A stretch of 64,000 bases of DNA. It comes from Bacteroidales bacterium (GTDB lineage Bacteria > Bacteroidota > Bacteroidia > Bacteroidales > Paludibacteraceae). The stretch covers positions 1-64,000 of the forward strand of contig JALFZG010000045.1 in assembly GCA_022784645.1 (NCBI GenBank), given 5' to 3'. Position 1 is the stretch's first letter. Each line of letters opens with the position of its first letter. Below are positions 11,301-28,245 of this stretch, in pieces. The position numbers and the translations under genes were made by a program. The notes beneath the pieces were generated by a model, which saw nothing but the letters and a program-made list of their open reading frames with translations, was not told where the DNA came from and searched no databases.

Positions 11301-13985
11301 ATACGAATTAAAGCGTAAGCACTTATTCGGGTTGCCGCTGTAGTCATAACGCTGGAATGCGTAGGTCGAACTGGCAGTACCCTCGGTGTTATCCCATCCC
11401 ATAGGAAGAATAGCAGAACCTACAAGGCCCTCAAAGGTCTCCTTAAACGGTACACCCAACTTGGTCATGAACGAATACGCATCTTCCGTAATAAGGGTAT
11501 CCGTACCACAAATGGTTTGCACAGTATAATAATAATAGGTGTACGGCGTGAGATTCGTAAGCACAACGCTGTCAGCCGTAGCAGCTGCTGCGGTGGTCTT
11601 CAGAATCATAGTATCCAGTTCGGTGCGGTCTTCGTCGGTATATACCTTAACGAGGAATCCGGTCATGCCACCGGGCGTCCAACGGATGACTGCCGTACGC
11701 GCTTCTGCAGTAGCATTGATATTTTCAGCATCAAAGCATGTGCTGAGCGGCTGCACGATGAGGTTATCGATGCAGTTACGGCTGCCGTAATTGGCATTCG
11801 GAGTAACAGGTGCAAGTGCACGGAGAGCTACATAATGGCCCGTTCCGGTATAAGCAGCCAAATCTACGCGTACCTTCTGATAACTACCGGTAGGACCATC
11901 GTAGCGAGCAATCTCATTGAAGGTAGAGAGATCATACGGGTCGGTCATTACACCTACAGCCACGCGGCTGGATCCTGCGAAGGATTCACTACCTGCTGAC
12001 AAACGGAACGTAACTTCCAAACCGGTCAAATCATTGATATACGGGAGAGCGATGAAGTTATCGATACCATTCAAGAGCAAGTAAGCACCATCGTGAAGCG
12101 GCGCAACAGCGCTCGTAGTAGGATACATACCAAACGATTTCATCGGACTCGTAAATACAGCCGGCGAGTTGGTAGTGTTATTGGCATGACGCTCGTTCAC
12201 GAGGTCCTTCAGTGCGAGGGTCTCAAACGAACCGGCATTAAACGTCAGGTTCAGCGGAACAACGGTAGAGGTAGGAACGCGGAGCGTGAGCGGGAATGCC
12301 CATTCAGAAGTCACACCGTTCTTCACAGCCTGCACGTAAATCAACACAATCTTACCTGCAATCTCGGTCTCCGGAAGCTGAACCAAATAGTTAACAGTTG
12401 TAAGGCCCGTTTGATTCACAAGGCAAACAGAGTCTGCCAGCGAAGCGGGGTCACGCGTATATTCCGTAGCAACCTTCAGATTCCAAGAGTCGGCACCATG
12501 CAACTGAGGCGTTACTGTAAAGCCGGTAGGCAATACTTCGGTAGCGCGAATATTGCAAGGAACAGATATATTTACTTCCTTAACGCTGAAGTTATCCACA
12601 AAGAACACGTTCTCCTTATTCGACTGCGAAACGAGAGCAATATGCTTACCTGCACCCGTATAACCGGCAAAGGAAACGTGGAAATGCTTGAACTGCAGAG
12701 CGTTGTCAATCTTTACGGTCTCGATTACCTCGAGTGTACCAAGATCGTTCGGATCGGTCATGATACCTACAGCGAGCTCAGCAGCATACTGGGTTAAACC
12801 GGAATAATAATAGTTATACACGGTACCCCAGAAGTCCAATTCGCAATTAGCGAGGTTGCCATTAATCTCGGGCGAAACGGCATACTGAACACTATCAGCC
12901 CCTACCGGAACAACATTCGTAGAGAGCGCACCGCCGAATGCGAGATAGTTAGTAGAGTCAACCGAACAATTGTTCTTATCAGAAGTGGAAGAGCCCTTAT
13001 ACACTGCAGGCATATTCACTCCCTTCAGACCTCCGCAAATCCAACCAACGGGACTACCGAAGTTGAGATTGTTGCCAATAGGTTCAGTTGTTTCAAATGT
13101 TTCTACATACGGAAGATCTACCAAGCGAGACGTCTTGAACGTACCGCGTACCCAATTGGTATAACCGGAAAGGTTGTCGTCGCAATCCGTACGTACATAC
13201 ACGTAATAGGTTTGATACGACTCCAGACTGTCAACAATTACATCGTAATCTTCAGTAATAGTATAGAAATCAACGGAGTCAGGATCAAATGCCGTCCAAT
13301 CGTTGATAAGGTTTTCAGATACAACCACTTCAAAGTTGTTGTACGAACCATTGCAGACCAAACTGATGGTCGCAGTAGTTGACGTTACAGCAATGTTCTG
13401 GATGCTCGCATCCTGGCACTGGGTTGCGGGATAGACACTGATATCATCGAGCACAACGCCCAAGCCAGCATGATCCGATGCTTCAAACGCCAACTGATAA
13501 GCAGTACCCTGCTGATAGCCGGGGAGAAGAATCGTCTCCGTCTTCCAAGTAGTAACCGGTGAGGTATATTCCACCAGCGACTGCCACGGAGCAGTAGCAT
13601 TCACACGATAGTAAACACGCAAGGTATCAAAGAAACCGAAGCGTGCTACTTGTGCGTGAGAGAAAACAAGCTGTGGATTATAAGCCTGAGTGAGGTTCAT
13701 AGCAGGAGTGATGAGCTTCGTAACGAAGCCCTCAATCTGACCCGACGTACCGCGGAGCACAGCGCGATAATCTCCACTCTTGGCGCCCTTAGGCAAACCA
13801 AGATTGGCGTTTACGCCACCTTCTACGGTCCAAAGAGCCGTACCATTGACGTTCTCTTGGGTCCATCCTGCAGGAATCACACCTGTCTCAAATCCTTCCG
13901 GCGACAGACAATACTGAATAGCCGAAAAAGAAGGCAGCACACTCATAAGCATCACTGCCAAAATCGAGAGGATAGTTTTTCTCAT
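2400..13985 (-). CDS. Giant mosaic surface protein (cleaved-adhesin/MAM-like and fibronectin III modules, T9SS sorting domain)
   Basis: This 3861-aa protein (roughly 410 kDa) starts with a signal peptide (residues 1-21, cut near PSFSA). It is then built of alternating modules. Cleaved-adhesin/jelly-roll-like modules are recognised by openings such as PYVETFE, PFKETFEG and PWSDDFES; fibronectin III modules by a Cys-led strand, a central SW or TW, and YYxYVRxxC. Two copies of a different module (YSQHIYTA / WNQMIYPA) start near residues 2205 and 2680. Residues 3565-3750 hold Cys repeats ending in GCDS. The last 70 residues form a type A T9SS sorting domain (VAPNPAS, LMVFDAIGQLVY, GYYTVRL, KLLVK end). 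It should be exported through the outer membrane and anchored on the surface. Ligand unknown. It has its own promoter and terminator. Confidence 0.93.
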   Translation of the reverse strand: MRKTILSILAVMLMSVLPSFSAIQYCLSPEGFETGVIPAGWTQENVNGTALWTVEGGVNANLGLPKGAKSGDYRAVLRGTSGQIEGFVTKLITPAMNLTQAYNPQLVFSHAQVARFGFFDTLRVYYRVNATAPWQSLVEYTSPVTTWKTETILLPGYQQGTAYQLAFEASDHAGLGVVLDDISVYPATQCQDASIQNIAVTSTTATISLVCNGSYNNFEVVVSENLINDWTAFDPDSVDFYTITEDYDVIVDSLESYQTYYVYVRTDCDDNLSGYTNWVRGTFKTSRLVDLPYVETFETTEPIGNNLNFGSPVGWICGGLKGVNMPAVYKGSSTSDKNNCSVDSTNYLAFGGALSTNVVPVGADSVQYAVSPEINGNLANCELDFWGTVYNYYYSGLTQYAAELAVGIMTDPNDLGTLEVIETVKIDNALQFKHFHVSFAGYTGAGKHIALVSQSNKENVFFVDNFSVKEVNISVPCNIRATEVLPTGFTVTPQLHGADSWNLKVATEYTRDPASLADSVCLVNQTGLTTVNYLVQLPETEIAGKIVLIYVQAVKNGVTSEWAFPLTLRVPTSTVVPLNLTFNAGSFETLALKDLVNERHANNTTNSPAVFTSPMKSFGMYPTTSAVAPLHDGAYLLLNGIDNFIALPYINDLTGLEVTFRLSAGSESFAGSSRVAVGVMTDPYDLSTFNEIARYDGPTGSYQKVRVDLAAYTGTGHYVALRALAPVTPNANYGSRNCIDNLIVQPLSTCFDAENINATAEARTAVIRWTPGGMTGFLVKVYTDEDRTELDTMILKTTAAAATADSVVLTNLTPYTYYYYTVQTICGTDTLITEDAYSFMTKLGVPFKETFEGLVGSAILPMGWDNTEGTASSTYAFQRYDYSGNPNKCLRFNSYSAPAGADNYLATPSIMLDGADAMRLSFDYKNPAGGDFEVLYALDGDTNRTQIFANLTNQYDYVTKNFDLTPFIGHSIVIYFHATSNWGNGDAYVYLDNVGIKAIDPNCIGMGTLTATNVGETEADITWTVGGVQEAYLKVTEMGDTTALFEGVVTSSPHHLSGLTQNTFYEVLGYQPCGTQDTLITYFKTNCAPISVEDFATETFSDELNFECWRSGVFDTSGVGSTYIFEPSVSYINGLGNVLKLEKRQNSADNVYGNGYYAILPALTIDSISKYQVVFNAATSRGDTANLHSLQVGVITNPEDPSTFELIKEINLSYAADSLHMKQYAVSFADYLGDYEGGFGTNVIFMVSADAYHSNVAYIDNVRLMEATSCPQILDMEQTAQSCTSVTLTWSGTASEYDVILTEDLCNPDTVVNPAYSQTGLTDTTVSFTNLPAGVTYFAFVRGICANGDTSNWSSYTLASTSYGTPFLETFDQMTPYPQDEWKVFTVSINAGEDFNTTGFVPNTSSYKMSIQNVDSRLTNMAGKAARTEVYASSYNGFLQSPIIDLSNVDSGMGVNLSFRIGMVAYSSSTELSTNFSGRSFRVYVSEDGENFKATDVTEWNCDGTGDYEYVSLGTSDAEKVNVDLSKYAGKNISLGFYSGSSVSQPDAYLYIDSVAIAAYDNSCLPVSRIRTNVEANSASVTWNNNTPGVSVIVELSDNSNFSTILKHDSLVGDSVNYSELGYFTTYYVRIKPACADEWVTTKFTTKYGVPYTETFNASNSYLPAGWERLEGDLLAGTTTASTYAWSLTTTPGGGLTDNHVYCYTNTQSSYSTGLLTPRLLSLVSPDVYLLQQTGYDLILSYDMAMTTSASGTASPERARVKGHSFNLCIMATGDTAWTVLQSWKDTAMLEIPAIAEQQTVDLSAYAGQTVRLAFFASSDTTSTSSSVYHHIDNIRLRHVNPNCATPVAHVVSSAQTTATVGWDAETGAQYVVELSKIESFASILDSVTTTDSTATFSGLESADEYYARVKKICSAGNESGWSEPVEIRTKCVAFAEYPWTEDFSAYPSGPLTDPCMVNEHLTGSGTRVFEVTTSSIGGNNTKKLMLPDMSSGTMTLLSLPLMAFDSTYLYELSFSVYRSASYSSYTDEGVRIYLGENPAIDATAQEIVFVPREPNVEVPGLIPAESGSGWYTYNFTFRASGEKNFILRGESKYGASTYLDDFVVSAFTNTQTIRNAEFGGATRNTMTLSWTLVDNSICHDAEVVISTTELDSAQLEAADKIQVSNATEYTFSGLVRETTYYMYVRTICDGVYGGWASASGTTTGLVNDIQAAVGNGSASATLIVTSYGNTYSQHIYTAQELSAAGVAAGPIQSVAFDYTGASSNYDKTQTIYIGTTTQTEYTGAESTDFIPNLQIVNGPTLRSYVPGWVTYTFNQPFIWDGSSNIVVGVLTNGDGTHMGSSGWSTNGTNVTANRTIYRYKDAAIIDVTNLSAVNNGSASSIRPNAKFGQQFTLEACPAVDTIVASYIGRGTSEILVSWTASEGDYVADYDVFITDQADVDLATITPQYTVDSLSLPITGLTDGTQYYIYVRANCDADGHNDGISQWAMTTITTNLSCMPVKDMAVTFLNTNHVRATWNKYTEEQETDFRYVLSPVELDSAALAQATLLSCTTMYLDLDELNHETTYYLYVRGECAERISSWNSISFTTPQSCQPVVDIVVDRTSANAARISWSHAPFAFEQLWEVGIVGQPATKQFVADTMAVFAGLMGNTEYTAYVRAVCAEGDTSIVNTVSFTTSAVAALECIPSGTDEPSTYDDSYNYSPFGHYYGNSWNQMIYPATLIGQEGTINRMSFYCKDGATFTQQSVTVYMANVENAAAQSATDWVPMSDLVQVFHADNYVHPTAEGWSEIVLDTQFEYAGGNLAVIVACLNDGYDSDLTYSYSVEQNGALMYRRADGDPTFGQHPGTNGGTRSTNLPLAQFCFVMSGCQKVSDLKATNVTMESAVVSWYPGGSETSWNTILSSTPLSEAQLAAAQTTTLTTASQTLTDLHVGRDYFYYVAPVCGSASGPWVSCHFVTEATCQQPVNVVVDSIEIHEADVFFNYGESGPAASYDVIYGPAATFSVFDPATYQLINVTDTSAHLSGLTADTYYNVAVRAICNEADTGRFSEPVLFLTNCDIVTAFPWSDDFESYAVGEFFNQCWVNEHTATESPSSTYSTYLFMVTSQSLGGVASKVLELRDQQAGNVTQLTLPRMYFAEGQPLEFSIDVYRSHNSTIKSNEGLRIYISTSDTVDASAQLLAFIPRQYSVDGINANAVDTARWCTYHFQLPEIGEGNIIIEGISEYGDATYFDNVSVKSLDLTCGGVNAISVSDLDVTSVVLNWTTIGNDSVRVVVTDELGGNILTRVTTAKSVNLTGLTKGTHYQATVTQLCSERSQMILFATYESVPYFEDATLPKDWTVSYSQNASYYKWAITKTADYILGEMKDTVFYCNLYYYYPVQTRLMSPEILVPELGDNELLYLDWLMGATAASAYYGGTELDPSTVIRVDICTYDSTGEGTWNAVKTWEGGNLAQIPWDNSGKFTVDLSDYAGQNIRFGFYASKDDYSSVSAYLSIDNIYLHRVQEMNYDANACSWVDYMDEYFSIPLDSFVLGTTEYQTMVTGIEENPDTLVTMNLTVSEATQTILHDTICEGELYDRNDINPFIARTSVIKPHFYTSVNGCDSLVSIHIEVKPSSRRDTTILSCKDQPVTVSGKTYYNNIVVIDTLSGVNTCDSIVRTFIQFSETAGYDINQHRILCAGETYTDVAFPNGISAAGTYTATVKTAYGCDSTVTVKMLVADNGVAYDTITIEELPYVYAEDTILGTNVGAGDYEFPLQATCGQVTLYIHVTDGKGEGQAVDNLKVLQLSVAPNPASVGEPIEILSQVSMAPDFSLMVFDAIGQLVYATDEPSLTIPGLPVAGYYTVRLTSDGQSFQAKLLVK

Positions 13986-14094
13986 GTCAGTAAAAATTAG
14001 TTAATAAATATGGTTATTTGCGTTTGTCTTCCTTTAATAATATCACGTGCACGCGAGTACGCGCACGAGATGTTGCGGTATATGATACGACTCG

Positions 14095-14126
14095 CAAAAG
14101 TACAAAAAAAAAATCAATCTCACAAA
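14095..14126 (-). promoter_or_regulatory. Bacteroidetes-type promoter of the giant surface-protein gene
   Basis: Minus strand: TTTG (14123-14126), exactly 20 bp containing a run of ten T, then TACTTTTG (14095-14102). This is a full match to TTTG-N20-TAnnTTTG. It gives a leader of about 105 nt that includes a CACGTG motif (14044-14049). Confidence 0.8.
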
Positions 14127-14299: not shown

Positions 14300-15343
14300 C
14301 TATAAGCAGTTGCAATCTTTCTTCCTGCTGGCAGATCGATATCGATTACCATCGCCGGCATTCAGCACGAAAGCAAGTTTGATTCCTACTGACAGCTCCG
14401 TAATGGAAAGCAGCGTACGATGGCTTATATAGCGGCTATTGAGTACAGAATTGAAGCGGAGCAAATCAGCGAGTTGTGGCTGATTATCAGGAATAAGAAT
14501 CAACCCATCGGCATTTCTCCTGTTCTCTAATTGGGAATAATCCACAAGATTTAAACTATGCTCATTGGTAGAAACCAGCGGGAAGCTCCATTCGGCATAC
14601 GCACCAATGCGCATCTCAACAGGCATCTCTTTAATAGGGAGAGCTTGTTTCCACCCTATCTCTATTTCGGGTGCAAGCCTGAGCCGCATCGGATGATTAT
14701 TATTCGGAGTAGAATTTCCCCATGTAAATTGTTCGCAAGGAACACGCGTGATGGTATAGGTGGGATAATTGCCATCGGCCGCCCAAGATTCAATCACATC
14801 TACCCATTCGCCTTCCGAACCATAAATATCGCTATATTGCTTGCACGTAGAGAACGACACGTGGGTAAGGAAATCAGCGCTGATCATCGTAGATAGTTTC
14901 AGACCGCCCAGCATATACCAATTGGCGGTCAGTTCGCCACCCATATACAGCATTGCCCCTACGCTCCATTGGCGCTGCGTCTCCACGAAATAGTCATACC
15001 AATAATGATAGCGCACCTCTGCTGGATCGGGAAGTTTATCTACATAACCCACGCGCACTTCATCATAGTCTTTTACCTGCTGACGCATCAACGAATAATC
15101 AGTATGCACCATTATACCACCAAAGATTGGTCCTCGCGCCATCTCATAGCCTATCCCAATCAGGCCGCCTATCCCTGCCATATCCTTTACCAGTAAATCG
15201 GCAGATGCAGAAGAGGTCAACGTGTTGCACTCCCCTACTCCAATTTCCAATACTCCCCGATGGGATAAGCGTTCCCCATAACCTCCGGCCAGTGCATTGG
15301 CAGCACAAAGCAAGATTCCCCAAACGACACTAATCTGCTTCAT
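14300..15343 (-). CDS. Outer-membrane beta-barrel protein (type I barrel), last gene of the operon
   Basis: This 347-aa protein has a signal peptide (MKQISVVWGILLCAANALA) and alternating amphipathic strands with Gly/aromatic turns, as in small outer-membrane barrels. It is paralogous to the 362-aa barrel at 23231-24319: both contain IGYEM, YDYF/YDYV-E-Q, AYAEWSFPL/FAEWGIPL, a L-x-DYS segment, NSVLN and SITxLxxGIK near the end. The C-terminus KKDCNCL extends past the last strand and carries a Cys pair. It begins 4 nt after the stop of the cargo gene upstream, so the two are translationally linked. A role as partner or anchor of that cargo is inference; no named family is recognised. Confidence 0.8.
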   Translation of the reverse strand: MKQISVVWGILLCAANALAGGYGERLSHRGVLEIGVGECNTLTSSASADLLVKDMAGIGGLIGIGYEMARGPIFGGIMVHTDYSLMRQQVKDYDEVRVGYVDKLPDPAEVRYHYWYDYFVETQRQWSVGAMLYMGGELTANWYMLGGLKLSTMISADFLTHVSFSTCKQYSDIYGSEGEWVDVIESWAADGNYPTYTITRVPCEQFTWGNSTPNNNHPMRLRLAPEIEIGWKQALPIKEMPVEMRIGAYAEWSFPLVSTNEHSLNLVDYSQLENRRNADGLILIPDNQPQLADLLRFNSVLNSRYISHRTLLSITELSVGIKLAFVLNAGDGNRYRSASRKKDCNCL

Positions 15344-15347
15344 GCTG

Positions 15348-17102
15348 CTATTTGACTATTACACGCGTAACGTAAGTATCCGCTTTTAAAATATATACGC
15401 CTGCTTGGGGCGCTGCTATTTGCAAGTTACCAGCCGTATCGTAAGCCGACAATATCAGCCTGCCAGCCGCATCATACAAGTATGCGGACTGCGTATCCGC
15501 CAATCGAATTGTTTGGCCTTGCTGAAGCAAAAAGCCACAGCGAGAAGGGTTGCCATTAGTGCTGCTCTCTTGGTCTGCCACACCAGTAAATACAGGCTGT
15601 TGCCATACCTTTGGACAGGTAGCCGCCACATTGCCCCATGTGTCAGTAATCACGCAGTAGAACTCCGAGCCCTCAGGGGCATCGCCTACGCACAACTGAC
15701 TGCTCGTCGCACCTTGGACTGGCTCACCATTCTGATACCACTGAAACGTACATCCTGCAAATTCATATCCGCCATTATTGGCCGCATTCTTAAGGAAAAT
15801 ATACGACCCACGCTGCACCGTGGTGAACGATGGATAGCGCAACTGCAATACGATTTCCTGCTGTGCTGGTTCGCCGCAAACCACCTCCGAACTGTAGGGC
15901 TTCAGTATAAAGGGATAACTACCCACCCTAAGCATCGCATTATTATCGGTAAGGTCCGGCAGGTCGATAGTCCAGGGCTGGGGATCGCCATCGCGCCACA
16001 CATAGCGCGCATGGAATCCGGCTTGTATAGCCTTATGTTGTGCTATCAAAACGACTGAATCGCAACTGCCTTTAGCTATCGTAAACGGTACCATCCAATC
16101 GCCATCTGCACACGCAGCAAACAAACTATCTATAGCCAGTTCAAGTTGTGGTGTCAGGTCCGGCTGCGGGTCTGCCTCAAGAGTTATGGAGCAACCTGTT
16201 TTAGAGAGAATATCTACGCAATACACAGCCGTATCGCCTGCTTGTAAATCCAAAATATGCTCCGTGCCTATTGTAGCTTCCGGCGCAAATTTCTTATACC
16301 AGCGATAGTCAAAACCTACGGGGGCCTCAAAATGCGTAGAGGGCATGCCGCAATCCAGCCCATAGAAGGCTGCACGTTCGCAATGAATGGTAAAATAAGC
16401 ATACGCAAAATGCTCTTTCAGCGAGCAGTTTTGGACCAGCAAACGAATACGAAGCGGTTCGCCTACATAATCGCGAAGTGAAAAGAACACCGTAGTCCAT
16501 TCTTTCCATACAATCATCACCGGCTTATGCGTATCGGGATCCATATATGGATGGGTATGCCATCCATCTGTCAGCGCATTGAGCGATACGGACTGCGGAC
16601 GAAAATCAGCAAAGAAACACGGCTCTGTTCCCAAGGGATTACCTGCATCATCCAAAACCTGAAGCATGAAATGCGGCAACTCATTCTCCTCATGGCCGCT
16701 GCGCGGGGTATCAAACACTACTGCATAGCGCAAAATCAGCATATCGCCATCTTCCAAGGTGGGCGTATAAGCATACTCGATAGCCCCACCCCAATCACCA
16801 TCAATCCAAGATCCCAATCTAACTGATGACGGTTCGCCAGCAGGCACAGTATGCAAGTTGCTGCCCGTACGAGGGTCGGTCTCACTGCTACTGGTATGCA
16901 CCGTATGGCGCGACTCTTCGTTTGAAGAGCCACGATCCACAACCCCCATCTGAGCCATTGGATTATCTACCGTACCGCTGTAGCAAGTACAAGTAGCACT
17001 ATTCGTAAGATTAGCAAAATCAATGCAATCCAGCCACCTCTCACCCTCTTCAGCAGCAAGAATCAACGGCCGCCATGCCAATAGCATAGCAGCCGTCAAC
17101 AA
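15348..17102 (-). CDS. T9SS cargo protein, short form (cargo C)
   Basis: 584 aa. It opens almost at once with the module shared by three cargos here: WLDCIDFANL near residue 22, then HTV, DPRTGSNLHTVPAG, VRLGSW, RYAVVF, and FAYAYFTIHC near residue 234. Ig-like segments follow. The C-terminal T9SS sorting domain (residues 515-584: AYLYDAAGRLIL, AGVYILKADTY, RVIVK end) ends in the usual basic residue. Compared with the two larger cargos it lacks the N-terminal adhesin and fibronectin modules. The only standard start is TTG at 17102, giving a signal peptide without its basic n-region. The frame continues upstream as KTIRKIVLL behind ATT/ATC codons (17124-17132) after a stop, so the real start may be non-canonical. 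Confidence 0.85.
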   Translation of the reverse strand: MLTAAMLLAWRPLILAAEEGERWLDCIDFANLTNSATCTCYSGTVDNPMAQMGVVDRGSSNEESRHTVHTSSSETDPRTGSNLHTVPAGEPSSVRLGSWIDGDWGGAIEYAYTPTLEDGDMLILRYAVVFDTPRSGHEENELPHFMLQVLDDAGNPLGTEPCFFADFRPQSVSLNALTDGWHTHPYMDPDTHKPVMIVWKEWTTVFFSLRDYVGEPLRIRLLVQNCSLKEHFAYAYFTIHCERAAFYGLDCGMPSTHFEAPVGFDYRWYKKFAPEATIGTEHILDLQAGDTAVYCVDILSKTGCSITLEADPQPDLTPQLELAIDSLFAACADGDWMVPFTIAKGSCDSVVLIAQHKAIQAGFHARYVWRDGDPQPWTIDLPDLTDNNAMLRVGSYPFILKPYSSEVVCGEPAQQEIVLQLRYPSFTTVQRGSYIFLKNAANNGGYEFAGCTFQWYQNGEPVQGATSSQLCVGDAPEGSEFYCVITDTWGNVAATCPKVWQQPVFTGVADQESSTNGNPSRCGFLLQQGQTIRLADTQSAYLYDAAGRLILSAYDTAGNLQIAAPQAGVYILKADTYVTRVIVK

Positions 17103-17147
17103 TACTATTTTTCTAATCGTTTTGATAATAATAAACTATACGTTTAT

Positions 17148-19115
17148 TTAGAAGATATCTTCTTCTGCCTCTTCTTCGTTCAATACGGTTACCTCTACGC
17201 GGCGGTTGTTCTGACGGCCAGCATCGGTAGCATTCGTATCAATCGGTTCGAGTTCGCCCTTACCATCCGTTTCCATACGGTCAGCAGCGATACCACGCTT
17301 GATCATCTCGTTCTTCAAGCTTTCGCTTCGGCCTTCAGAGAGCTTCTGGTTGTGCTCTTCAGAGCCCTGCGAGTCGGTATGACCGGTAATCAATACGCGA
17401 ATCTTCGGGTTGTCTTTCAAGAAATTATAGAGCGTAAGAATATCATCTTCTGACATCGGCAGAATATCCGTCTTATCCGTAGCGAAGTACATGTGCTTAA
17501 GAATCAACTTATGACGTACACGGATGATCGGACGCAAGTAATAATTCACGTTCTGGTCGTAGAGGTCAGAGAGCGCAAGGGTATCAGAGTGATAACCCGG
17601 AGCACTAACCACAACGTCATAGGTATTGCCATACTTGAGGCTCATCTCCAAGCTCGTTTGCTCTGCTGTGGTGCTGCCAGAGCGCTTATCCTCTGACTCA
17701 TGCGATATCAGCGTAATCGATGCCGGAATCAATGCCTCGGTATTGGCATCGTGGATATAGAATACATTCTTCGGTACCGGAATAAGAGCGAAGTGGATAG
17801 TATCCTTCAAGTCTTGCTGGTGATCAAACTGAATGGTATCACTATCCAGATAGCCCGGAGCGGTAGCTGAGAATTTATACATACCTCTATACAAACGCGG
17901 AGCCAACTTACCATCACGCTTCATAGCCTTCTGCTGCGGACGTTTGCGACCTTGCTGATGAACAGCCACACGAGCAATCGACTTAGTAGGTTGATTATCC
18001 GTAAAGGCATCCGTAACCCAGAAGAGAAGACGTGGATTCGGAATCTTCGGCTTATTGAGCTGAAGCAAAGCCGTAAACTTCACGCCAACAAGTAAGCTGT
18101 TGACGCGTGCGTTAAACGCACCTGCGCCGCGAGCAATCTGCGATTTATGCACAGATGTAGTGAAGAACTTTTCTACAGCATAGCCGCCATCATCTACACC
18201 GGGCACGAACGTAAGCATGTCGGTGTTCGTTTGATTGGCTTTTGCGAGCGACATGGCATACATATTGGGGATACCATAATCTATGAACGCGGCCGCACGC
18301 ATGTGTAAGGGGTATTTCTTCTTCATGTTCTCCTTCTGCCAAGTAGCCGACATAAATTCGTTGATGTTCACACCAAACTCTGCGCTTACAGTAGCATCCA
18401 GACCGAAGTTGTTTTTACCCTTAAACGTAGGCTTAATACCATCTACCTGCTGATAGAGAGGGTGCTTACCGAGCTGCTCCTTCTGCAGAAAATGCGAATA
18501 AATCTCATACCAGTCATCTACTGCCATTTCGTCGGTTACGGAGCTCGTAATTTTGGCGCGCTGATGGTAATGACCAAAAATCGAATAGCCCACCTTACCA
18601 CCTGCAAGGAAATAGAACTTCTCGAAGTTCGCACCAAACATAATCGGCAACATAATCTGACCTACCACGTTCGTCTCGTGATATCTTTGAATATCGAAGT
18701 GCTGAACCATGGAGGAATATTCGGGATGAGTATAGTCAATCATGCTAAACTTCTCGCCGTTTGCATCGAGCATATGGAAATTATCACGAGAAGACAGCAC
18801 GCGGAACTCCGGACCAACGGAGAAAATGAACTTCTTATGATGCAGTTCATACCCTACTCCAATCATACCGCCGCCTCCACCAAGGAACTGGGGCTTATAC
18901 GTACCACTCGTAAGATCATACGTAAAACCGAGGTTATCGCTCTTGCTGTAGTTGTTTACAAGTCCGGAATAACCCGCGCCTCCCCAGAAGCTAACCAAAT
19001 GGATGTCTTGGCTGTACTTACGGCGATCGGACATTTTTTTCTTGGCAGCCATTGCGCTCATGCTACCACTTACCAAGATTGCAACCAAAATACTATAATA
19101 GAGATATTTTTTCAT
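17148..19115 (-). CDS. Outer-membrane barrel (type II) fused to an OmpA peptidoglycan-binding domain
   Basis: 655 aa. The signal peptide is about residues 1-23. An N-terminal barrel (25-330) is paralogous to the protein at 22358-23209: GGGGGMIGVGYELHHKKFIFSVGP, ILPxMxGA and YFLAGxKxGY. Two carboxypeptidase-regulatory/PEGA-like beta modules follow (about 380-515), each with APGYxxDT. The OmpA C-terminal domain (about 538-645) has FATDKTDILP, ITGHTDSQGS and NQKLSEGRSESLKN, including the Asp and Arg that bind diaminopimelate in OmpA proteins. It would tie an outer-membrane complex to the cell wall. The regulatory-module plus OmpA tail recalls PorE of the T9SS, but the N-terminus differs. It lies mid-operon, 22 nt after a cargo gene. 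Confidence 0.87.
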   Translation of the reverse strand: MKKYLYYSILVAILVSGSMSAMAAKKKMSDRRKYSQDIHLVSFWGGAGYSGLVNNYSKSDNLGFTYDLTSGTYKPQFLGGGGGMIGVGYELHHKKFIFSVGPEFRVLSSRDNFHMLDANGEKFSMIDYTHPEYSSMVQHFDIQRYHETNVVGQIMLPIMFGANFEKFYFLAGGKVGYSIFGHYHQRAKITSSVTDEMAVDDWYEIYSHFLQKEQLGKHPLYQQVDGIKPTFKGKNNFGLDATVSAEFGVNINEFMSATWQKENMKKKYPLHMRAAAFIDYGIPNMYAMSLAKANQTNTDMLTFVPGVDDGGYAVEKFFTTSVHKSQIARGAGAFNARVNSLLVGVKFTALLQLNKPKIPNPRLLFWVTDAFTDNQPTKSIARVAVHQQGRKRPQQKAMKRDGKLAPRLYRGMYKFSATAPGYLDSDTIQFDHQQDLKDTIHFALIPVPKNVFYIHDANTEALIPASITLISHESEDKRSGSTTAEQTSLEMSLKYGNTYDVVVSAPGYHSDTLALSDLYDQNVNYYLRPIIRVRHKLILKHMYFATDKTDILPMSEDDILTLYNFLKDNPKIRVLITGHTDSQGSEEHNQKLSEGRSESLKNEMIKRGIAADRMETDGKGELEPIDTNATDAGRQNNRRVEVTVLNEEEAEEDIF

Positions 19116-19137
19116 AATCTAATCGTATTTGCGTGGA

Positions 19138-22100
19138 TTATTCAGAAACTGAGATTCTTACTTGCTGTGCATATTCAGCAAACTGGAAGTTCAGAATATA
19201 AACGCCAGCGCTGTAAGGTGACATTACATAATTATCACCTGCTTCAATCGCAACGGTGCCCATCAGCACACCCATCGTATTATATACAAAGAGCGTACAA
19301 GCCTCAGGAGCGTCAACGTGAATCATCTGACCGGTTGCAGTACGAGTGGGGCTTACACTTACACCACGAGCCGCATTTTCCGGGATAAACGGACAGGTCT
19401 CATCGATTGTGCTGTCTTCAAGCATCACTACGCAAGTATAATGAGCACCAATGGTGAGGCCACCTTCTTCGTAGTAATATGACTTCGTAGCATTCTCGAT
19501 ATCCACACCGTTTTTCTTCCACTGATAAGAGAGGAACTTCAAGGTTCGTCCACTATTCATTTGAGGATCTTGACTTTCAGGGTTCTTGATAGAGAGCACG
19601 TCGTTCCAACGCTGGAAAATCAAATCACGCAAACAGGGAGCCAATAAATCAAAAGTTGTAGTAGAATCACAACCTATTTCATTATAGAACGTTACCTCAT
19701 AAGATCCTGCATCCAAACCTCTAAAAATAATACTATCGTATTTTTGTTCTCCTCCATTAATGGTGTAATATGACCAACCACTACCTTTGAACTCAACCGT
19801 TGAGTTCATTACTGTTTCTGACATTTGAGTCAAAACGATAGAAGGAGCAACCTCTGGCATTACTGTTACTGGCAGAATTACCAACGAATCGCATCCCAAT
19901 GCCGTACGAAGCGGATGATACAGATTACCACTTACAAGCTGATCGAAACAATCCCCTTCAAGGCAAATTGTATCACCATAGCAGATGGTCGTATCGCTTA
20001 ACGTGTATCGAGCCGTATCGTGGAATAGTACGTTTGTGATGGATAAAGCATCACAACCATACTGATTTAGGCCAAATACGGTATCCGTGAAGTTCTCAGT
20101 AATTTCAATATTCCCTGATGGATGATGATAAGTGAACTTTTCACCCTTACACAACTCCACGTTCGTAACAACAGTCTGTTGAGTTAGATCAGGCAAGTTG
20201 AGCGTATCAGTCCATACCGAATCGCAAACGCCTCCACTCATTGAAGCACGAGCAGTTACTATATATTGTCCACCTTCTGCTGGGAATTCAAACGAAACGA
20301 TACTATCCAAGGTCTCCAATTCTCCTAAACCACCGAAGTCCCAAATTACGTTATCGATGGTATCTTTATCGGAAACTATAGGCTCTTTGGTTACACGATT
20401 AATAACTGCCACATACGACGTATTCTTATATTGCACAATATTCTTGCAACCTTCATGCGTAATGGATTCGCGCGTAACTTGCGCAATCGGGAAACGTGGG
20501 TTGGGGTCAGCCACCAACTCATACGAGCAATACTGGCCATCCACCTTCTCCTTATTGATTACCTCAAGTACATACACCGTATCGCTATTGATAGAGATGT
20601 TGAACACACTATCCTCACTCAGCACATTGGTGCGGAGCGTATCCGTTTGATAATACCAGCGGTAGTTAAAGTCACCCGAAGGTGCTTTGAAATGGTCAGT
20701 AGAGAAATCACCACATGAGATACCTTGCATACCACCATCGCGGCAGTTGAGCGTAAAGTACGCATAGCCAAAGTGTGTATCAAAGATACAACGCGAAGCG
20801 GTAAGACGAATAGTAAGCATCTGGCCGCCGTACTTATTCAGCGAGAACGTTACTTTTTTCCAATCGCACCAGAAGATGTCGCCCTCTTGATGCCATCCCG
20901 ATCCAGCCGTTCCACTCTGGTCTGCTACGAAATATGCATGTGTACAACCAGGGATCTGACGGCCTTTCGCATCAAGAATCTCCAGTTGGAAGAACGGGTT
21001 CTCCTCGCCATGGCCACCGGAGTTAAGCACACAAGCATACTGCAAATCCACAAGCGACACCTGTCCGGGCGGAACGCGGTATTTATATTCTATTCGGGCA
21101 TCCTCACCCGAGTTAGTATATGCTCCTAAACGAATGGAGGCTATTTCTCCATCCGGTACTGTTTTTAAACCACCATTTACCGTAGTATTGGGGTCAATCT
21201 CACCCAAGTCCGTATGCAAAGTATGCATACTCTGCGGCGAACCACTGCCCAAATCCACTACTTGAGGCGTATTCGAGAACGTCAGCGAAGTATGAGACGT
21301 ACTATTGGTATGAGTACCGACGTAGCAGATACCAGTATTCATCAAACTGGCGCCAAAATCGAAGAAGTCAATACAGCGCAATCCTGGAATCCAAGCGAAA
21401 TGCGACATCTGTACCCACTGCGAATGGGAGCCATCCGGGCAAACCGAACGCACATACAGGTCATAATGACCTTCGTCGGTAAACTGCATAGCAGCATTGG
21501 TGGTATTGACCGTAGTGATTGGTGTAAGCTGATCCTTCGTTTGGTTATAGCTGCACACCTCATATTGGGCAGCGCTACCCGACCAAGAGAACAATTTCAT
21601 ACGGTCATTATAGGCAAGGCTGGTAGGAGCCGGTGTACAGCCTTCCCCTTGAAACAATTCGATATTATCTATGCAGGCAGAGGGCGGGTTGGCAGCGCCA
21701 GCCGAGCTTATCCATACAAACACTAAACGTCCGGGAGCCGTCATTGTAGTTCCTGGCGTAAATACATAGTTGAAGCACTTCCAAGTAGCAGAGCCATATA
21801 AGGACGATGCCAATTTTACACCATTTTTAGATCCGCCATAGTTCGGTGCGGGCGAGTTATTCGACACCGGATTCACGGTTTGCGGCACCCACCACACATC
21901 CAACTTAGCCGTTACGCTACCAGCCAATCGATAATCGAATCGAATGGTGTGAGGTGTGGCGGTAAGTGCAGGTAGATCCACATATGCCGTAACGAACATA
22001 TTGCCCGTTCCTTGATATATGGGTTTACCCGTTGTAGTATCACTACAAATATACAAGCCGTATTGACCCGCTGTACCAAACTGACCTGGAGCACCGAAAT

Positions 22101-22275
22101 ACCAATTATTTTCGAGCGCCAAGTTCGGACGGTTAACTGGTTTGGAATTGAGTGTCCAAGCAGCTCGGTCTGTAGCATTCTCAAAATCGCACGAATAAAT
22201 CATTTGCGATTTTAAATCTTGAGCAACAACCAAAAAGACAGTCAAAATCAAACAAAAATTTTGAATTCTTTTCAT
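19138..22275 (-). CDS. T9SS cargo protein (cargo B) with adhesin, fibronectin, PKD-like and GCDS modules
   Basis: 1045 aa. The order is: signal peptide (to about residue 24); jelly-roll/cleaved-adhesin-like module (SCDFENATDRAAW); fibronectin III (from CTPAPTSLAY); the shared cargo module from CIDFFDFG (about 302) to FGYAYFTLNC (about 503); Ig-like segment; PKD-like segment (VIWDFGG, about 640); and Cys repeats (about 708-830) with GDCFD and GCDSL. The C-terminal sorting domain (from about 968: VSPTRTATGQ, LFVYNTMGVL, AGVYILNF) ends VSE rather than in a basic residue. Paralogous over its whole length to cargo A (24329-27565). Exported and surface-anchored by T9SS; ligand unknown. Confidence 0.88.
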   Translation of the reverse strand: MKRIQNFCLILTVFLVVAQDLKSQMIYSCDFENATDRAAWTLNSKPVNRPNLALENNWYFGAPGQFGTAGQYGLYICSDTTTGKPIYQGTGNMFVTAYVDLPALTATPHTIRFDYRLAGSVTAKLDVWWVPQTVNPVSNNSPAPNYGGSKNGVKLASSLYGSATWKCFNYVFTPGTTMTAPGRLVFVWISSAGAANPPSACIDNIELFQGEGCTPAPTSLAYNDRMKLFSWSGSAAQYEVCSYNQTKDQLTPITTVNTTNAAMQFTDEGHYDLYVRSVCPDGSHSQWVQMSHFAWIPGLRCIDFFDFGASLMNTGICYVGTHTNSTSHTSLTFSNTPQVVDLGSGSPQSMHTLHTDLGEIDPNTTVNGGLKTVPDGEIASIRLGAYTNSGEDARIEYKYRVPPGQVSLVDLQYACVLNSGGHGEENPFFQLEILDAKGRQIPGCTHAYFVADQSGTAGSGWHQEGDIFWCDWKKVTFSLNKYGGQMLTIRLTASRCIFDTHFGYAYFTLNCRDGGMQGISCGDFSTDHFKAPSGDFNYRWYYQTDTLRTNVLSEDSVFNISINSDTVYVLEVINKEKVDGQYCSYELVADPNPRFPIAQVTRESITHEGCKNIVQYKNTSYVAVINRVTKEPIVSDKDTIDNVIWDFGGLGELETLDSIVSFEFPAEGGQYIVTARASMSGGVCDSVWTDTLNLPDLTQQTVVTNVELCKGEKFTYHHPSGNIEITENFTDTVFGLNQYGCDALSITNVLFHDTARYTLSDTTICYGDTICLEGDCFDQLVSGNLYHPLRTALGCDSLVILPVTVMPEVAPSIVLTQMSETVMNSTVEFKGSGWSYYTINGGEQKYDSIIFRGLDAGSYEVTFYNEIGCDSTTTFDLLAPCLRDLIFQRWNDVLSIKNPESQDPQMNSGRTLKFLSYQWKKNGVDIENATKSYYYEEGGLTIGAHYTCVVMLEDSTIDETCPFIPENAARGVSVSPTRTATGQMIHVDAPEACTLFVYNTMGVLMGTVAIEAGDNYVMSPYSAGVYILNFQFAEYAQQVRISVSE

Positions 22276-22357
22276 ACTTATCTAAATTTATATTTTTGAA
22301 TATTTTCTGATGAACGAAATAAGAAACACATAAAGGGAAAGTATAAACCTCTCAGTA

Positions 22358-23209
22358 CTACCAATCAAACTTTTCTCTCTTATGTTCTTTACATATTACA
22401 CAGGCCCCATCGTTGGCCACCTCAAATAAAACCGTAAATTTGATACCTACCGAGAAATTTCCATACATGCGCTCAATGTAGTCTTTCGTTGACATTACAG
22501 GATTCAGTACGGTAGTAGTTCCCCCCTGACTTTCAATCATGTCACAAGGAGGATAAAAGGTATTTTTCCGAATGACGCCACCATCTGCAAACAGCGCAAG
22601 ATAATATCGATTCATAGAATACGGCACATCCGCACCTTTTTCTTTATACACATCACCCAAACGGAAGCCAATTTCAATTGCTCCCATAAAATTCCAATCA
22701 TAACGGAAGTCTTGTTTAGCACTCACAAGGTTTATTGGTAATCCAACGACATCTGCTTTCGGCAAAGCGCTACCATAAAACCTATAACCAATCTTAGGAC
22801 CCGCCAAGAAATATACGCGATATCCTTCAGCTCCTAACATAAATGGTAAGATTATCTCACCTGAATGAAGTACATCCATTCGATTAACAATAGAGAAGCC
22901 TACTCCCGATTGAACATCCGGTAACTTCATTGTATATGAGCCATAATGAGCCGATAATCCCGTTTGAAAAATGAACTTATCCTGATAATAGCGATAACCC
23001 ACTCCAATTTCACAACCACCACCCATATATTTATTCATATATTGGTTATTCAATTGTTTATCGTCCAACAAACTTTGGAACCCAAAATTGGTAGTCAAAT
23101 AGATAAAATCATGTCGCTCCGAATTATACGTACGTGGGGCAGCATGGAAAGAAACCGTGCTCATCAAGAGGAGCATTATCAGACATATTTTGATAGAGAC
23201 TTTCATCAC
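22358..23209 (-). CDS. Outer-membrane beta-barrel protein (type II barrel)
   Basis: 283 aa with a signal peptide (about 1-23). Strand motifs GGGCEIGVGYRYYQDKFIFQTGL, EIILPFMLGAE, YFLAGPKIGYRFYG and FSVGIKFTVLFEV make it a paralogue of the N-terminal barrel of the OmpA fusion at 17148-19115. After the last strand the chain continues as NDGACVICKEHKREKFDW, so it carries a CxxC motif beyond the barrel. It follows the type I barrel gene by 21 nt and precedes cargo B by 82 nt. PorP/SprF-like function is possible by analogy with cargo/barrel pairs elsewhere, but I do not recognise the family signature. Confidence 0.78.
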   Translation of the reverse strand: MMKVSIKICLIMLLLMSTVSFHAAPRTYNSERHDFIYLTTNFGFQSLLDDKQLNNQYMNKYMGGGCEIGVGYRYYQDKFIFQTGLSAHYGSYTMKLPDVQSGVGFSIVNRMDVLHSGEIILPFMLGAEGYRVYFLAGPKIGYRFYGSALPKADVVGLPINLVSAKQDFRYDWNFMGAIEIGFRLGDVYKEKGADVPYSMNRYYLALFADGGVIRKNTFYPPCDMIESQGGTTTVLNPVMSTKDYIERMYGNFSVGIKFTVLFEVANDGACVICKEHKREKFDW

Positions 23210-23230
23210 ATTTATGTTTAGTGCATATTA

Positions 23231-24319
23231 TTAATCTTCACATATTACGCAATAATGACGCGGAGCAGTCACATTGAATAAAATTGTCCACTTGATACCA
23301 ATCGTCAACTGAGTAATTGACAAAGCCCCTGCATGATTAATCAGGTTCGTATTGAGAACAGAATTGACTATCAAGCCTGATTCAAGTTGTTGTTTATCCG
23401 GAACTTCGACACCGGTAACATTCACCCAATCATTGGGGAGATTTTGAAGATATTGTTTTGTTACCACATTACTATGAATAATAGAATAGTCTATTAAGTC
23501 CAACATATTTTTGTTTACTTCCAAGGGGATTCCCCACTCTGCGAACACGCCTAATCTCATTCCTACTCGACCCGAATTAGATGGTATTCGCAAACGAGCA
23601 CCAAACTCAACGGAAGGAGACAGCATATATTTGTAAATATTTCCCGAACCATTGGGATTTGTAATTTCATAACGGATATTTGATTGATTACCATATTGCG
23701 ATTGAGGAGTATTCGTATTGGGATACACTTTAATCGTACTCAAATTAAAACCCGCTTTACAAGTGGACTTCAAGGGTAAAGAAAAACGTACTCCTACAAG
23801 TGCGTAGCAATACTGCCCAATATTCGCTCCAGAATATAAATGAGCAGAAACGTGCATCGTTTGCTGCGACTCAACGTAGTCATAATAGTCATAAGTATAT
23901 GACAATGGACTATAACCACGATCAATATACTGCATGGTTTGACCATTCCAATTAGTAGATATCGACGGTACGTTATCCACATAGTTATCAAACGTTTGCG
24001 AAAAATGCGCAATACTATGACGAGACAATGTATAATCAATATTGGCATTTAGACCTAAAATCCAACGACGATAGCGCATCTCATAACCAATGCTCCCTAT
24101 AGTAGCTGCACCGGGCAATTTTGTTAACGAGATGCCATTATTACTAGCAACAGGACTCTCTATATCAATAAACGACGAATAGCCTCCTGCAACAGACATC
24201 GTTATAAAATGGTTCGGACGAGTACTATACGTATAATGCTTCTTGGCTTCTGCAGATAAGGAAACTACAAAAGTTAGATACAATAAAATATATAGGATAT
24301 TTACGCGATTTTTCAACAT
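23231..24319 (-). CDS. Outer-membrane beta-barrel protein (type I barrel)
   Basis: 362 aa with a signal peptide (to about residue 25, VVSLSAEA). It is barrel-like throughout: SIGYEMRYRRWILGLNANIDY, YSGANIGQYCYALVGVRFSLPL, FGARLRIP, RLGVFAEWGIPLEV. The end SITQLTIGIKWTILFNV is a typical last-strand pattern but is followed by a tail with CVICED. Paralogue of the barrel at 14300-15343. Its start lies only 9 nt after the stop of cargo A, implying coupled translation and perhaps a dedicated partner role. Confidence 0.78.
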   Translation of the reverse strand: MLKNRVNILYILLYLTFVVSLSAEAKKHYTYSTRPNHFITMSVAGGYSSFIDIESPVASNNGISLTKLPGAATIGSIGYEMRYRRWILGLNANIDYTLSRHSIAHFSQTFDNYVDNVPSISTNWNGQTMQYIDRGYSPLSYTYDYYDYVESQQTMHVSAHLYSGANIGQYCYALVGVRFSLPLKSTCKAGFNLSTIKVYPNTNTPQSQYGNQSNIRYEITNPNGSGNIYKYMLSPSVEFGARLRIPSNSGRVGMRLGVFAEWGIPLEVNKNMLDLIDYSIIHSNVVTKQYLQNLPNDWVNVTGVEVPDKQQLESGLIVNSVLNTNLINHAGALSITQLTIGIKWTILFNVTAPRHYCVICED

Positions 24320-24328
24320 GGCTGAGAT

Positions 24329-27300
24329 TTATTTCACTATGAAACGAACAGTATTATCATTCACATTAAGAAGATAAACACCAGAGATAGAAGGAGCTTG
24401 CAACACTACAGGAGCAGGCACTCCTGTCATATTGTAATAGGCCAACAATCGACCTAAGCTGTCATATAAACGTATTTCACCTGATTGGTTAAGCAATATT
24501 TCTTCACCTGGTTCAACGCAAGTAGAACCAATCTGCAAGTTTGACTCTACGTCCTGCCATCCCACTGGGTCAAGAGAGGGATCAGATACATAAAACTTAC
24601 ACGTAAACAAACTTATATTGCTTATGGTATCCGTTATCAAACATTCATAATATCCGCGTTTACCTTCTTCGGGTAAATAATTCAAATCCACTTGATCTTT
24701 GGTATAACCATCCATCATCTCACCATTGTGATACCATTGGAAGGTACAATTTGAAAAATCATACCCACCATTGGACTCTTTATTCAAAATATAAATTACC
24801 GATTCACGCATAATCATAATGGAAATTGGATAACGCACTTCCAGAATCACTTCTACTTCATCAGCACAATTACCCTCCTGTAAATGCGGTACCATCGTAA
24901 ACATATATCGCCCTGCACGCAAAATCTTAGCAGGATCGTCTTTTAATGGTACCTCAAGAACAGTTGTATTTTGTGTATAATTCTCGAGCCATGTACCAGC
25001 AAATGTATAGTTCGGTTCAAAAACACCCGTTGCGAGAGCTTCTGGTCCAGAAATCCAATCTAATGATGCCACATCACCAGATAGAATATCCATGGGAATA
25101 TACCACGAATCTTCATTTGCACATAACACTGGGTAACGATTCATATCCACATCGAAGCGTGGCAACAAGCGTACATTTATGCTAACAATAGAATCACAAC
25201 CACCCTTTATTGTGCGCAACCTGCGAGTAAATACGGAACCTTGTTTGTCAAAGCAATCACCATTAATACAAAGATCTTCATCCTCACAAATGGCGGTATC
25301 GTTGGGTAATGTGATATTATAGGACCTATTAAACTTCAAATCCAAAGTAATAATACTATCACAACCCGCACGAGAAGAATGCACGTACTGCTTTACCTCC
25401 GGTTCTGTTAATCGTTCTCCTTCAAACTCCAAATATTCACCTTCACAAAGAGTAGTATCTATCAATAAATTTGCATCACCAATTGCAGGAATCTTTATTG
25501 TAAGCGTTGTATCCTGGCGGCATGCACCTTCACCTTCCGCAATCCAACCGGTAAGCGACACCGTAAACGTACCACCTGCCTGTGGATAAATATGCACATT
25601 GTTTTTTTGAGACGACATCTCGCCATCACCGAATGACCACGAGTAGCCAGCAAGTTCATCATAGTGCTTTTCTACGTTACCATTATAGCGCGTCTCAATA
25701 TAGCTCTTATTGGTAAATACCACACGGTTCTTACAATCCTGCGGGTCGTATTTGTAAGTAAAATCAGCCACCGGGAACTGCGGGAGAGCCTTTACGGAAA
25801 GTTCAAACCAGCAAGTAGGTTCCTCCTTGTTCGTAAGACGGCAAGTATATTCAATCGTATCAGATGTGACGACGTTCAACGTCTTTGACGTACCCAAAGT
25901 TGTGCCATTTTCATCTGTCCACAAGTAATTGAAGCCATCGGGGGCTTCTGCTGTAAGCGAGGTGTTGTCGCCGCAAGACGTAGTTTGAAGTGTTGCACCT
26001 GCGCAGTCCAACGTGAAATACGCATAGCCGAAGTGACCGGAATAGGAGCAGTCGTAAGTAGTCAAACGAATCGTAATCTGCTGACCTACATAGTTTTCAA
26101 GGTTAAGACCGATGGTTGACCAATCTTTGAACGTCACCTGGCTATAACCCGCACCAACCGTCTGCCAACCGGCAGCACCTGCGTGTGCAGCGAAGTTGAT
26201 ATGACCGCAGGTAGGGTCAATCAGGTCGCCGTTTTGATCCAAAATTTCCAATACGAAACGCGGCTGTGCATCGACCTCATGATCGGGGTCCTCCAGCACA
26301 ATCGCATAGCGGAGAAGGAGAATCGACAATGCTGAATCTACCGTGTACTTATACGAAACGGCTTCTGCTTCTGCGTTCACCTGCCAGTTACCCAAGCGAA
26401 CGGCAGCAATAGCGCCTTGAGGCACGATATTTAGCAGGCCATTGGTATTCGGATCTTTAGCCGTTTTGTCCCAGCAAACGGTATGACGGCTCATCTCCGA
26501 TTCATAACCATAATCAATCACGCCCTGATTCTGATAAGCCACATTCTTAGAGGTTTGATAGCCGTTGTAACCACGACCATAATAGCAAGTAGTGGCCGAG
26601 TCGTGCAAGTCAAAGTAAGTGATACAGTGAAGTTCCTTGCAGTAAATAAGAAACTCCTCGTCGTAATTCGCCCAAGAGCTCTTCATCTCATTGCCCTGAT
26701 CATCGTGGCAGATACCGCGAACGCGGAAATCGTAGCTGCCCTCCGTCAAGCCCTCCAAAAGAGCTAAGGTAGGATTAGCCGGATCAGAATAGCCGGCCGA
26801 CCAGGAGTTTTGTCCCTGCTTACGATATGCAACTTCATAGGAGTCAGCGGCTCCGCTCCAAGTAAGAATCACCGTGTCGCAACCAATTAACTCGGCCTGA
26901 ATATTGGTAGGCGCTTGGCAACGTGCATCGGTAATCTGGATATTATCAATACACCCTGAAAGCACAGCCGTATCCACCAAGCAACTATTGGCCCACGCCA
27001 CATAAAAGCGATAGGTGGTACCAGCTTTGGAAGTCAGCGGTGCAGGAAAAGTATATGACTGCCAGGTAGATTGACCAAATAAGGCACCTGAGTTATTGGC
27101 GCTCGTAAGTGCACTCGGCATAGAGCCGGAGGTGCTGTTCGCTGTTACCTGATTGGCCGTAGAGCTCGGGTTATTCTTAAATGCTACATACCCTACGTAC
27201 ATCGCAGCATTTTGCGGACCGGCATTCAGCCAGTCAAACGAGATATTAAACGTACCTGCCGGCAATACGAAATCGCGATATGCAAACTGCAGGTTGGGAT

Positions 27301-27565
27301 GATTCCAAAACGTTGGGTTGTCCGTAGAGTCTTTGATGTGCACGTAAAGCGAACGCTTACCATCGCTCTTTACTGCACTACCTACCATCCACTCGTCGTT
27401 GCAGTTAGCTGCAGCCGTACCTGGATTTAGATGCCAGTTTGCCAGCTCGGCAGAATCTACAGAATCTTCCTCAAAACTCATCACATAGGGAACACTGACT
27501 GCTTGAGAATAAGCAGCCAAAGCAAAAAATTCCAAAATCACCAGACCAAAAAAACGCTTAGTCAT
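24329..27565 (-). CDS. T9SS cargo protein (cargo A), first gene of the operon
   Basis: 1078 aa. The order is: signal peptide (about 1-20); adhesin-like jelly roll (YVMSFEEDSVDSAELANW); fibronectin III (from CQAPTNIQAEL, about 217); the shared module from HCITYFDL (about 312) through HTV, DPNTNGLLNIVPQGAIAAVR, RYAIVLEDP to FGYAYFTLDC (about 518); PKD domain (YSWSFGDGEMSS, about 643); and two Cys repeats (about 708 and 765) ending GCDSI. A T9SS sorting domain closes it (about 1006-1078: IRLYDSLGRLLAYY, SGVYLLNVND, RFIVK end). Preceded by a perfect promoter at 27707-27738. Function beyond surface display is not visible. Confidence 0.88.
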   Translation of the reverse strand: MTKRFFGLVILEFFALAAYSQAVSVPYVMSFEEDSVDSAELANWHLNPGTAAANCNDEWMVGSAVKSDGKRSLYVHIKDSTDNPTFWNHPNLQFAYRDFVLPAGTFNISFDWLNAGPQNAAMYVGYVAFKNNPSSTANQVTANSTSGSMPSALTSANNSGALFGQSTWQSYTFPAPLTSKAGTTYRFYVAWANSCLVDTAVLSGCIDNIQITDARCQAPTNIQAELIGCDTVILTWSGAADSYEVAYRKQGQNSWSAGYSDPANPTLALLEGLTEGSYDFRVRGICHDDQGNEMKSSWANYDEEFLIYCKELHCITYFDLHDSATTCYYGRGYNGYQTSKNVAYQNQGVIDYGYESEMSRHTVCWDKTAKDPNTNGLLNIVPQGAIAAVRLGNWQVNAEAEAVSYKYTVDSALSILLLRYAIVLEDPDHEVDAQPRFVLEILDQNGDLIDPTCGHINFAAHAGAAGWQTVGAGYSQVTFKDWSTIGLNLENYVGQQITIRLTTYDCSYSGHFGYAYFTLDCAGATLQTTSCGDNTSLTAEAPDGFNYLWTDENGTTLGTSKTLNVVTSDTIEYTCRLTNKEEPTCWFELSVKALPQFPVADFTYKYDPQDCKNRVVFTNKSYIETRYNGNVEKHYDELAGYSWSFGDGEMSSQKNNVHIYPQAGGTFTVSLTGWIAEGEGACRQDTTLTIKIPAIGDANLLIDTTLCEGEYLEFEGERLTEPEVKQYVHSSRAGCDSIITLDLKFNRSYNITLPNDTAICEDEDLCINGDCFDKQGSVFTRRLRTIKGGCDSIVSINVRLLPRFDVDMNRYPVLCANEDSWYIPMDILSGDVASLDWISGPEALATGVFEPNYTFAGTWLENYTQNTTVLEVPLKDDPAKILRAGRYMFTMVPHLQEGNCADEVEVILEVRYPISIMIMRESVIYILNKESNGGYDFSNCTFQWYHNGEMMDGYTKDQVDLNYLPEEGKRGYYECLITDTISNISLFTCKFYVSDPSLDPVGWQDVESNLQIGSTCVEPGEEILLNQSGEIRLYDSLGRLLAYYNMTGVPAPVVLQAPSISGVYLLNVNDNTVRFIVK

Positions 27566-27706
27566 CTTCCTATCTTTTTACTGGTTAATAATCAAGTTTG
27601 CCTCCTGCAGAACATTCCGCCCTAGAGCGCTGAGATCTGCACTTTTATGCGTAAGCGCATCTCTCTCACAACACGTGCGCGAGAAACTGCACACATAAAG
27701 TCGCTA

Positions 27707-27738
27707 CAAAATTACTACAAAATCTTCATATTTCCAAA
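27707..27738 (-). promoter_or_regulatory. Bacteroidetes-type promoter of the seven-gene cargo/barrel operon
   Basis: Minus strand: TTTG (27735-27738), 20 bp, TAATTTTG (27707-27714). It is a full consensus match about 140 nt upstream of the first ATG. The resulting leader contains CACGTGCGCGAG on the plus-strand reading, a motif also present in the leader of the giant gene. Confidence 0.8.
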
Positions 27739-27951: not shown

Positions 27952-28020
27952 CTTATACGTACGTGTAGCAGACACCACATGGTTCAAAACCAAAGCAACC
28001 TTAAGCTGCATAAACCTCAC

Positions 28021-28134
28021 TAATCGTCATTATCCGTTATTATCCGTCAACATCCGTTATTATCCGTCATTATCCGTTATTATCTGGCAATATCCGGCAT
28101 TATCTGTTACTATCCGGCATTATCCGGCATTAAG
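28021..28134. repeat. Decanucleotide tandem array (about 11 units)
   Basis: Eleven 10-bp units of consensus TATCCGKYAT follow each other without a single insertion or deletion, while bases inside the units vary (for example tatccgttat, catccgttat, tatctggcaa, tatccggcat). Confidence 0.9.
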
Positions 28135-28159
28135 TGGTAACCGGTATTCAAAAAAGCAG

Positions 28160-28167: not shown

Positions 28168-28245
28168 CACCCGCAACCGAGCAAGAACGCTCACCGATAA
28201 ACAGAACTGGACAAGCTGTTCGTCATGGGCCAAACACGGTTTCTC

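Follow-up and report, generated by a model that had tools for sequence, protein, structure and literature searches.

The window analysed here, a stretch of 64,000 nucleotides at the start of contig JALFZG010000045.1 from a Paludibacteraceae bacterium, carries seven open reading frames on the minus strand between positions 14300 and 27565. Their order of transcription is cargo A, barrel I, barrel II, cargo B, a barrel fused to OmpA, cargo C, and a second copy of barrel I, and the gaps between them are, in turn, 9, 21, 82, 22, about 45, and 4 nt—the gap of about 45 nt before cargo C shrinks with an upstream start for that gene. About 150 nt 5' of cargo A is a promoter of the Bacteroidota type, TTTG-20 nt-TAATTTTG (27707..27738, minus strand), and a terminator-like intrinsic hairpin with a T-run stands 3' of the last gene (14264-14233, minus strand). 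A first-pass annotation had read these genes as one operon framed by a single promoter and terminator; reading frames, order, gaps, homologies, and both framing signals bear this out, and a related species with about 77% identical DNA has the same order and gaps. The host genome is 2.29 Mb in size, and its close named relatives are assemblies of Paludibacteraceae and Bacteroidales from the rumen, the horse gut, and other gut sources.

Downstream of the operon, and on a separate transcript with its own promoter (14095-14126), is the gene for a giant fn3/MAM-repeat protein of 3861 aa with a type A C-terminal domain (CTD; 2400..13985, minus strand). Cargo-barrel sets have the giant as a neighbour at 28 of 37 loci, which makes it a conserved member of the neighbourhood, and it is probably a co-displayed adhesin. 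Two paralogues with near-identical C-terminal ends lie elsewhere in the host genome (L140:3-11186; L141:2167-13818). GC-rich GCGCACGTG/GTGCACGTG stretches occur soon after the promoter in the minus-strand leaders of cargo A (27565-27700) and the giant (13985-14100), and are absent from the leader of the L141 paralogue. Positions 28000-28480 (minus strand), 5' of the operon promoter, are AT-rich with short repeats of the GAACGGAG/GCGGTGAACGT type. Also in the window, outside the operon, is a protein of 401 aa (61264-62469, plus strand) whose C-terminal domain is of the OmpA type.

Cargo A (24329..27565, 1078 aa) consists of a signal peptide, a jelly-roll/fn3-like N-terminal part, a conserved core (HFGYAYFTLDC), PKD and Ig-like domains, and a type A-like CTD (24332-24496). 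Cargo B (19138..22275, 1045 aa) is its homologue, with a type A-like CTD (19153-19338) that scores below the cut-off, and cargo C (15348..17102, about 584-593 aa) is a short form of both, reduced to the core and the CTD (15351-15506). Cargos B and C match cargo A at 30-33%, and the core of all three holds invariant cysteines and the motif HxxYAYF. No ATG gives cargo C a good signal peptide; the readable signal peptide begins 5' of the first ATG or TTG. The start is either the TTG at 17102 or a non-standard codon upstream. Scores against TIGR04183 are weak in a protein scan of the cargos (21.3, 16.7, and 18.1 bits; cut-off 23), and in a genome scan cargo A reaches 26.1 with cargos B and C below the cut-off. 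A search of the core profile against PDB sequences returned nothing useful. About ten orthologous cargos (L051:6701-9949, L056, L061, L063, L085, L087, and others) have a short tail, for example IIIRDGERYDVLGQKVQTK, from which the last CTD motif is missing. The host genome also holds a second set of two cargos and a barrel-OmpA (L040:4258-11052), which no twin-cysteine barrel adjoins.

The four barrels belong to one family: barrel I copy 1 (23231..24319, 362 aa), a predicted 8-stranded outer-membrane protein, barrel II (22358..23209, 283 aa), barrel I copy 2 (14300..15343, 347 aa), and the fusion (17148..19115, 655 aa), in which a predicted 8-stranded barrel is followed by two Ig/CarboxypepD_reg-like linker domains and an OmpA peptidoglycan-binding domain (17202..17489; PF00691, E 1e-18). 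Profile comparison with hhalign links barrel I, barrel II, and the OmpA-fused barrel at 99.9-100%, and structure models place eight long strands in both barrel I (pLDDT 74.5) and the fused barrel (pLDDT 70.1). Two barrel subtypes and growth by duplication, both proposed earlier, are supported; subtypes were typed with seed HMMs because iterated HMMs mixed them. The suggestion that one barrel is wired to peptidoglycan is likewise supported in that an OmpA peptidoglycan-binding domain is fused to it, with the binding residues (D581, N589, L592, S593, R596) invariant in 12 orthologues. Foldseek matches the fusion to the PorE C-terminal domain (6top), and barrel I to OmpA, NspA, Ail, and OmpX at low TM-scores that indicate the small-barrel class only; barrel profiles run against PDB sequences gave nothing useful. 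The full-length barrel-OmpA protein is found only in the genus, and other families match its OmpA end alone. A second arrangement—giant, a protein of about 800 aa missed by the cargo profile, and barrel-OmpA—is present at L038:7688-10096, L074-L076, and L089-L094.

The first-pass annotation had recognised no signature in the barrels and so missed one, a periplasmic twin-cysteine tail at the C-terminus of the unfused barrels, like in kind to those of PorG and SprF. It reads C357-V-I-C360 in barrel I copy 1 (23240..23251, eight residues past the last predicted strand), C270-V-I-C273 in barrel II (22391..22402), and C344-N-C346 in barrel I copy 2 (14306..14314), all on the minus strand. Across the window and 55 related loci, C-x-C or C-x-x-C follows the last strand in 45/45 unfused barrels and 0/55 OmpA-fused ones, against a background in the same loci of 6/408 other ORFs, or 1/178 with a signal-like N-terminus. 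PorG proteins of the genus carry such tails too (CRxC and similar); the host's own ends in CTTC, the tail being its only readable part because the gene is split over contigs C22 and C70. Free-standing twin-cysteine barrels with no adjoining cargo occur at L049, L058, L059, L069, L077, L084, and L096, and at all of these except L058 (6/7) they adjoin cdaA, folP, and a GldJ-like gene. Liu et al. 2025 (PMC12635249) report that the Cys-x-Cys tails of PorG, an 8-stranded T9SS protein, and SprF, a carrier, form disulfide bonds with GldK Cys343 and so join the motor-driven track.

Known families of T9SS barrel were considered and rejected as the identity of these proteins. For PorP/SprF there was no TIGR03519 match at E up to 1, hhalign gave 2-12% to 28 PorP proteins, and the strand number of 14 disagrees with the eight long strands of both barrel models; the claim that the barrels are not PorP/SprF is thus upheld by both profile tests. 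For PorG there was no NF052316 match, and hhalign gave 35-68% to genus PorG over short local stretches.

Pairing of cargo and barrel is conserved well beyond this operon. Among same-genus loci a barrel directly follows the cargo for 53 of 63 cargos, with a median gap of -1 nt, and the genes most often run cargo, barrel-OmpA, cargo, twin-cysteine barrel, giant. A sample of 390 genomes from outside the genus held distant relatives of the barrels in 36; a same-strand gene lies no more than 150 nt upstream at 35 of 40 such loci, and across Bacteroidales a type A CTD is present on 35 of the 39 genes directly upstream. At most 4/62 control neighbours (downstream neighbours and upstream neighbours of PorG) carry one, a bound set by the absence of TIGR04183 among the families listed, which reach down to 4 members. 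Of the 40 distant barrels about 23 have a bare end, 16 are fused to OmpA, and 1 has twin cysteines, the OmpA-fused and bare forms pairing equally well with cargos, and the pairing is kept across about 25 genera. The idea of T9SS cargos paired with their own barrels is therefore supported within the genus and, by a gene-order survey, order-wide; such co-occurrence is not that of an ordinary porin family unconnected with the cargo genes. We found no earlier report of type A cargo-barrel pairing in the open-access literature, and, to our knowledge, the dedicated carriers described so far are all PorP/SprF proteins serving type B cargos.

Of 40 other Bacteroidales families that were sampled, only 5 have the cargo core. 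Two of these five share the domain with type B systems: there the core comes with a type B tail, and a true PorP/SprF follows after 9-10 nt. PorP occurs once per genome in nearly all genus members, and 5-18 PorP/SprF are present in several other families. The most economical reading is that different lineages have equipped a single type of cargo with different carriers.

Several known systems resemble the operon in part. As in the SprB-SprF and PG1035-PorP pairs, the cargo gene is followed by a gene for its own outer-membrane barrel, and the twin-cysteine tail of the unfused barrels has a counterpart in the periplasmic Cys-x-Cys tail through which SprF is bonded to GldK. PorP/SprF proteins are 14-stranded (PMC9143113), whereas the operon barrels are predicted to be 8-stranded and are unrelated by profile. 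The cargo tails also differ—type A-like in the operon, type B (TIGR04131) in the SprB and PG1035 kind. PorG, predicted to be 8-stranded in F. johnsoniae, resembles the operon barrels (as predicted) in form, sharing the small barrel and conserved C-tail cysteines, CxxC in genus PorG; however, it is a single core gene that precedes uppS-bamA, and the operon barrels are multicopy and cargo-linked. The fusion shares its CarboxypepD_reg-like and OmpA peptidoglycan-binding module with PorE and PorP-PorE pairs, where the module likewise lies in the periplasm beneath the barrel that binds the cargo; it differs in joining barrel and OmpA anchor in a single polypeptide, with no TPR or propeller, and in not being a lipoprotein. 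The sprC-sprD-sprB-sprF gliding operon likewise groups a carrier barrel with a giant adhesin and other spr genes; the operon studied here, in contrast, is without SprF, uses another barrel family, and adjoins a type A-tailed giant, and we know of no motility, including gliding, in these uncultured bacteria.

Parts of the T9SS and its track are present in the host genome: SprA, one PorP (away from the operon), PorK-L-M-N, PorG, and a GldJ-like lipoprotein. A DUF6089 (PF19573) search for PorG gave no match, and PorG was found with NF052316 instead; in other Bacteroidales families tandem PorG-like paralogues adjoin PorG (G093:C55, G086:C31, G078:C12). PorK has cysteines at 289 and 341, near positions 285 and 343 of GldK, and because position and motif agree, the two pairs probably correspond. 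The GldJ-like lipoprotein (L138:5250-6917) scores 345 bits against TIGR03524, below the cut-off of 458, and lower, 234, against GldK. In four relatives (L049, L059, L077, and L084) the GldJ-like gene, with gcvH, lies directly upstream of the cargo-barrel set, and at L069 it shares a locus with the set.

Taken with these comparisons, the operon suggests a cargo-barrel display parallel to the type B/PorP-SprF one, with two alternative tethers, a reading to which we give about an even chance. Cargos A, B, and C would use their C-terminal signals to cross the outer membrane via the SprA translocon, and the dedicated 8-stranded barrel encoded right after each cargo would hold that cargo on the cell; this step is proposed because of the analogy with SprF-SprB and PorP-PorE-PG1035 (PMC9143113, PMC12618676). 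The periplasmic tails of the unfused barrels would form a disulfide with the conserved PorK/GldK cysteine, as SprF and PorG do, and the cargos of these barrels would therefore ride on, or be fixed to, a motor-driven PorKN ring or a track containing the GldJ-like protein. In the fused barrel an OmpA domain would take the place of the twin-cysteine tail and act as a static anchor of the cargo to peptidoglycan. Similarly, in the postulate of the authors of PMC9143113, mobile type B proteins have an SprF-like carrier as their sole support and non-mobile ones are tied to the wall via PorE-like proteins; the operon would combine the two modes. Cargo-barrel contact, the disulfide to PorK, and movement of the cargos would each follow by analogy, and cargos A, B, and C may, as had been suggested before, be parts of a single structure.

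Several observations count against this display model: the profile link to PorG is weak and short (as above), some orthologous cargos are without a full CTD, outside the genus most paired barrels are without the cysteines (1/40 has them), the GldJ-like protein falls under the GldJ cut-off, and these bacteria are not known to be motile. In addition, the type A cargos described in the literature depend on PorV and A-LPS, with no private barrel.

Alternatively, the barrels may hold the cargos as static anchors, with the tail cysteines linking barrels to one another or to some other periplasmic protein in a fixed coat that involves no motor. Disulfide-linked OmpA oligomers in P. gingivalis (PMC12635249) and the cargo-barrel repeats, with several barrels per operon, speak for such a coat; however, the position of the tail and its CxC/CxxC spacing match PorG and SprF, and genus PorG has the same tail, so we consider it unlikely. 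We find it somewhat harder still to credit that the barrels are export accessories, PorG-like paralogues that would use motor force for cargo exit before PorU/PorV process the cargos as ordinary type A proteins; the PorG-like 8-stranded fold with its cysteine tail and the type A-like CTDs fit this, but profiles do not place the barrels in the PorG family, and OmpA-fused and bare barrels are paired with cargos to the same degree. That ordinary surface proteins and an ordinary small outer-membrane protein are merely co-transcribed is very improbable—operon membership alone is no proof of contact, yet the pairing recurs over those many genera with tiny gaps and is absent from control neighbours.

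The display model has a wider, more tentative extension, which we think doubtful at present: gut Bacteroidales that are not known to glide may have a second, PorP/SprF-independent class of surface proteins, set covalently by twin-cysteine barrels on a motor-driven PorK/GldJ-like track and moving, beside paired copies anchored to the wall. The pair appears, by analogy, to act like a cargo-carrier pair, yet it falls outside the definitions of PorP/SprF and PorG that were tested. That type A-tailed cargos are paired throughout the order with a barrel of another kind suggests that T9SS substrates have a third fate, and the twin-cysteine and OmpA tethers make the disulfide-to-track model directly testable outside gliding bacteria. 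Together, the pairing points to a second, previously unrecognised way to hold secreted proteins on the cell surface.
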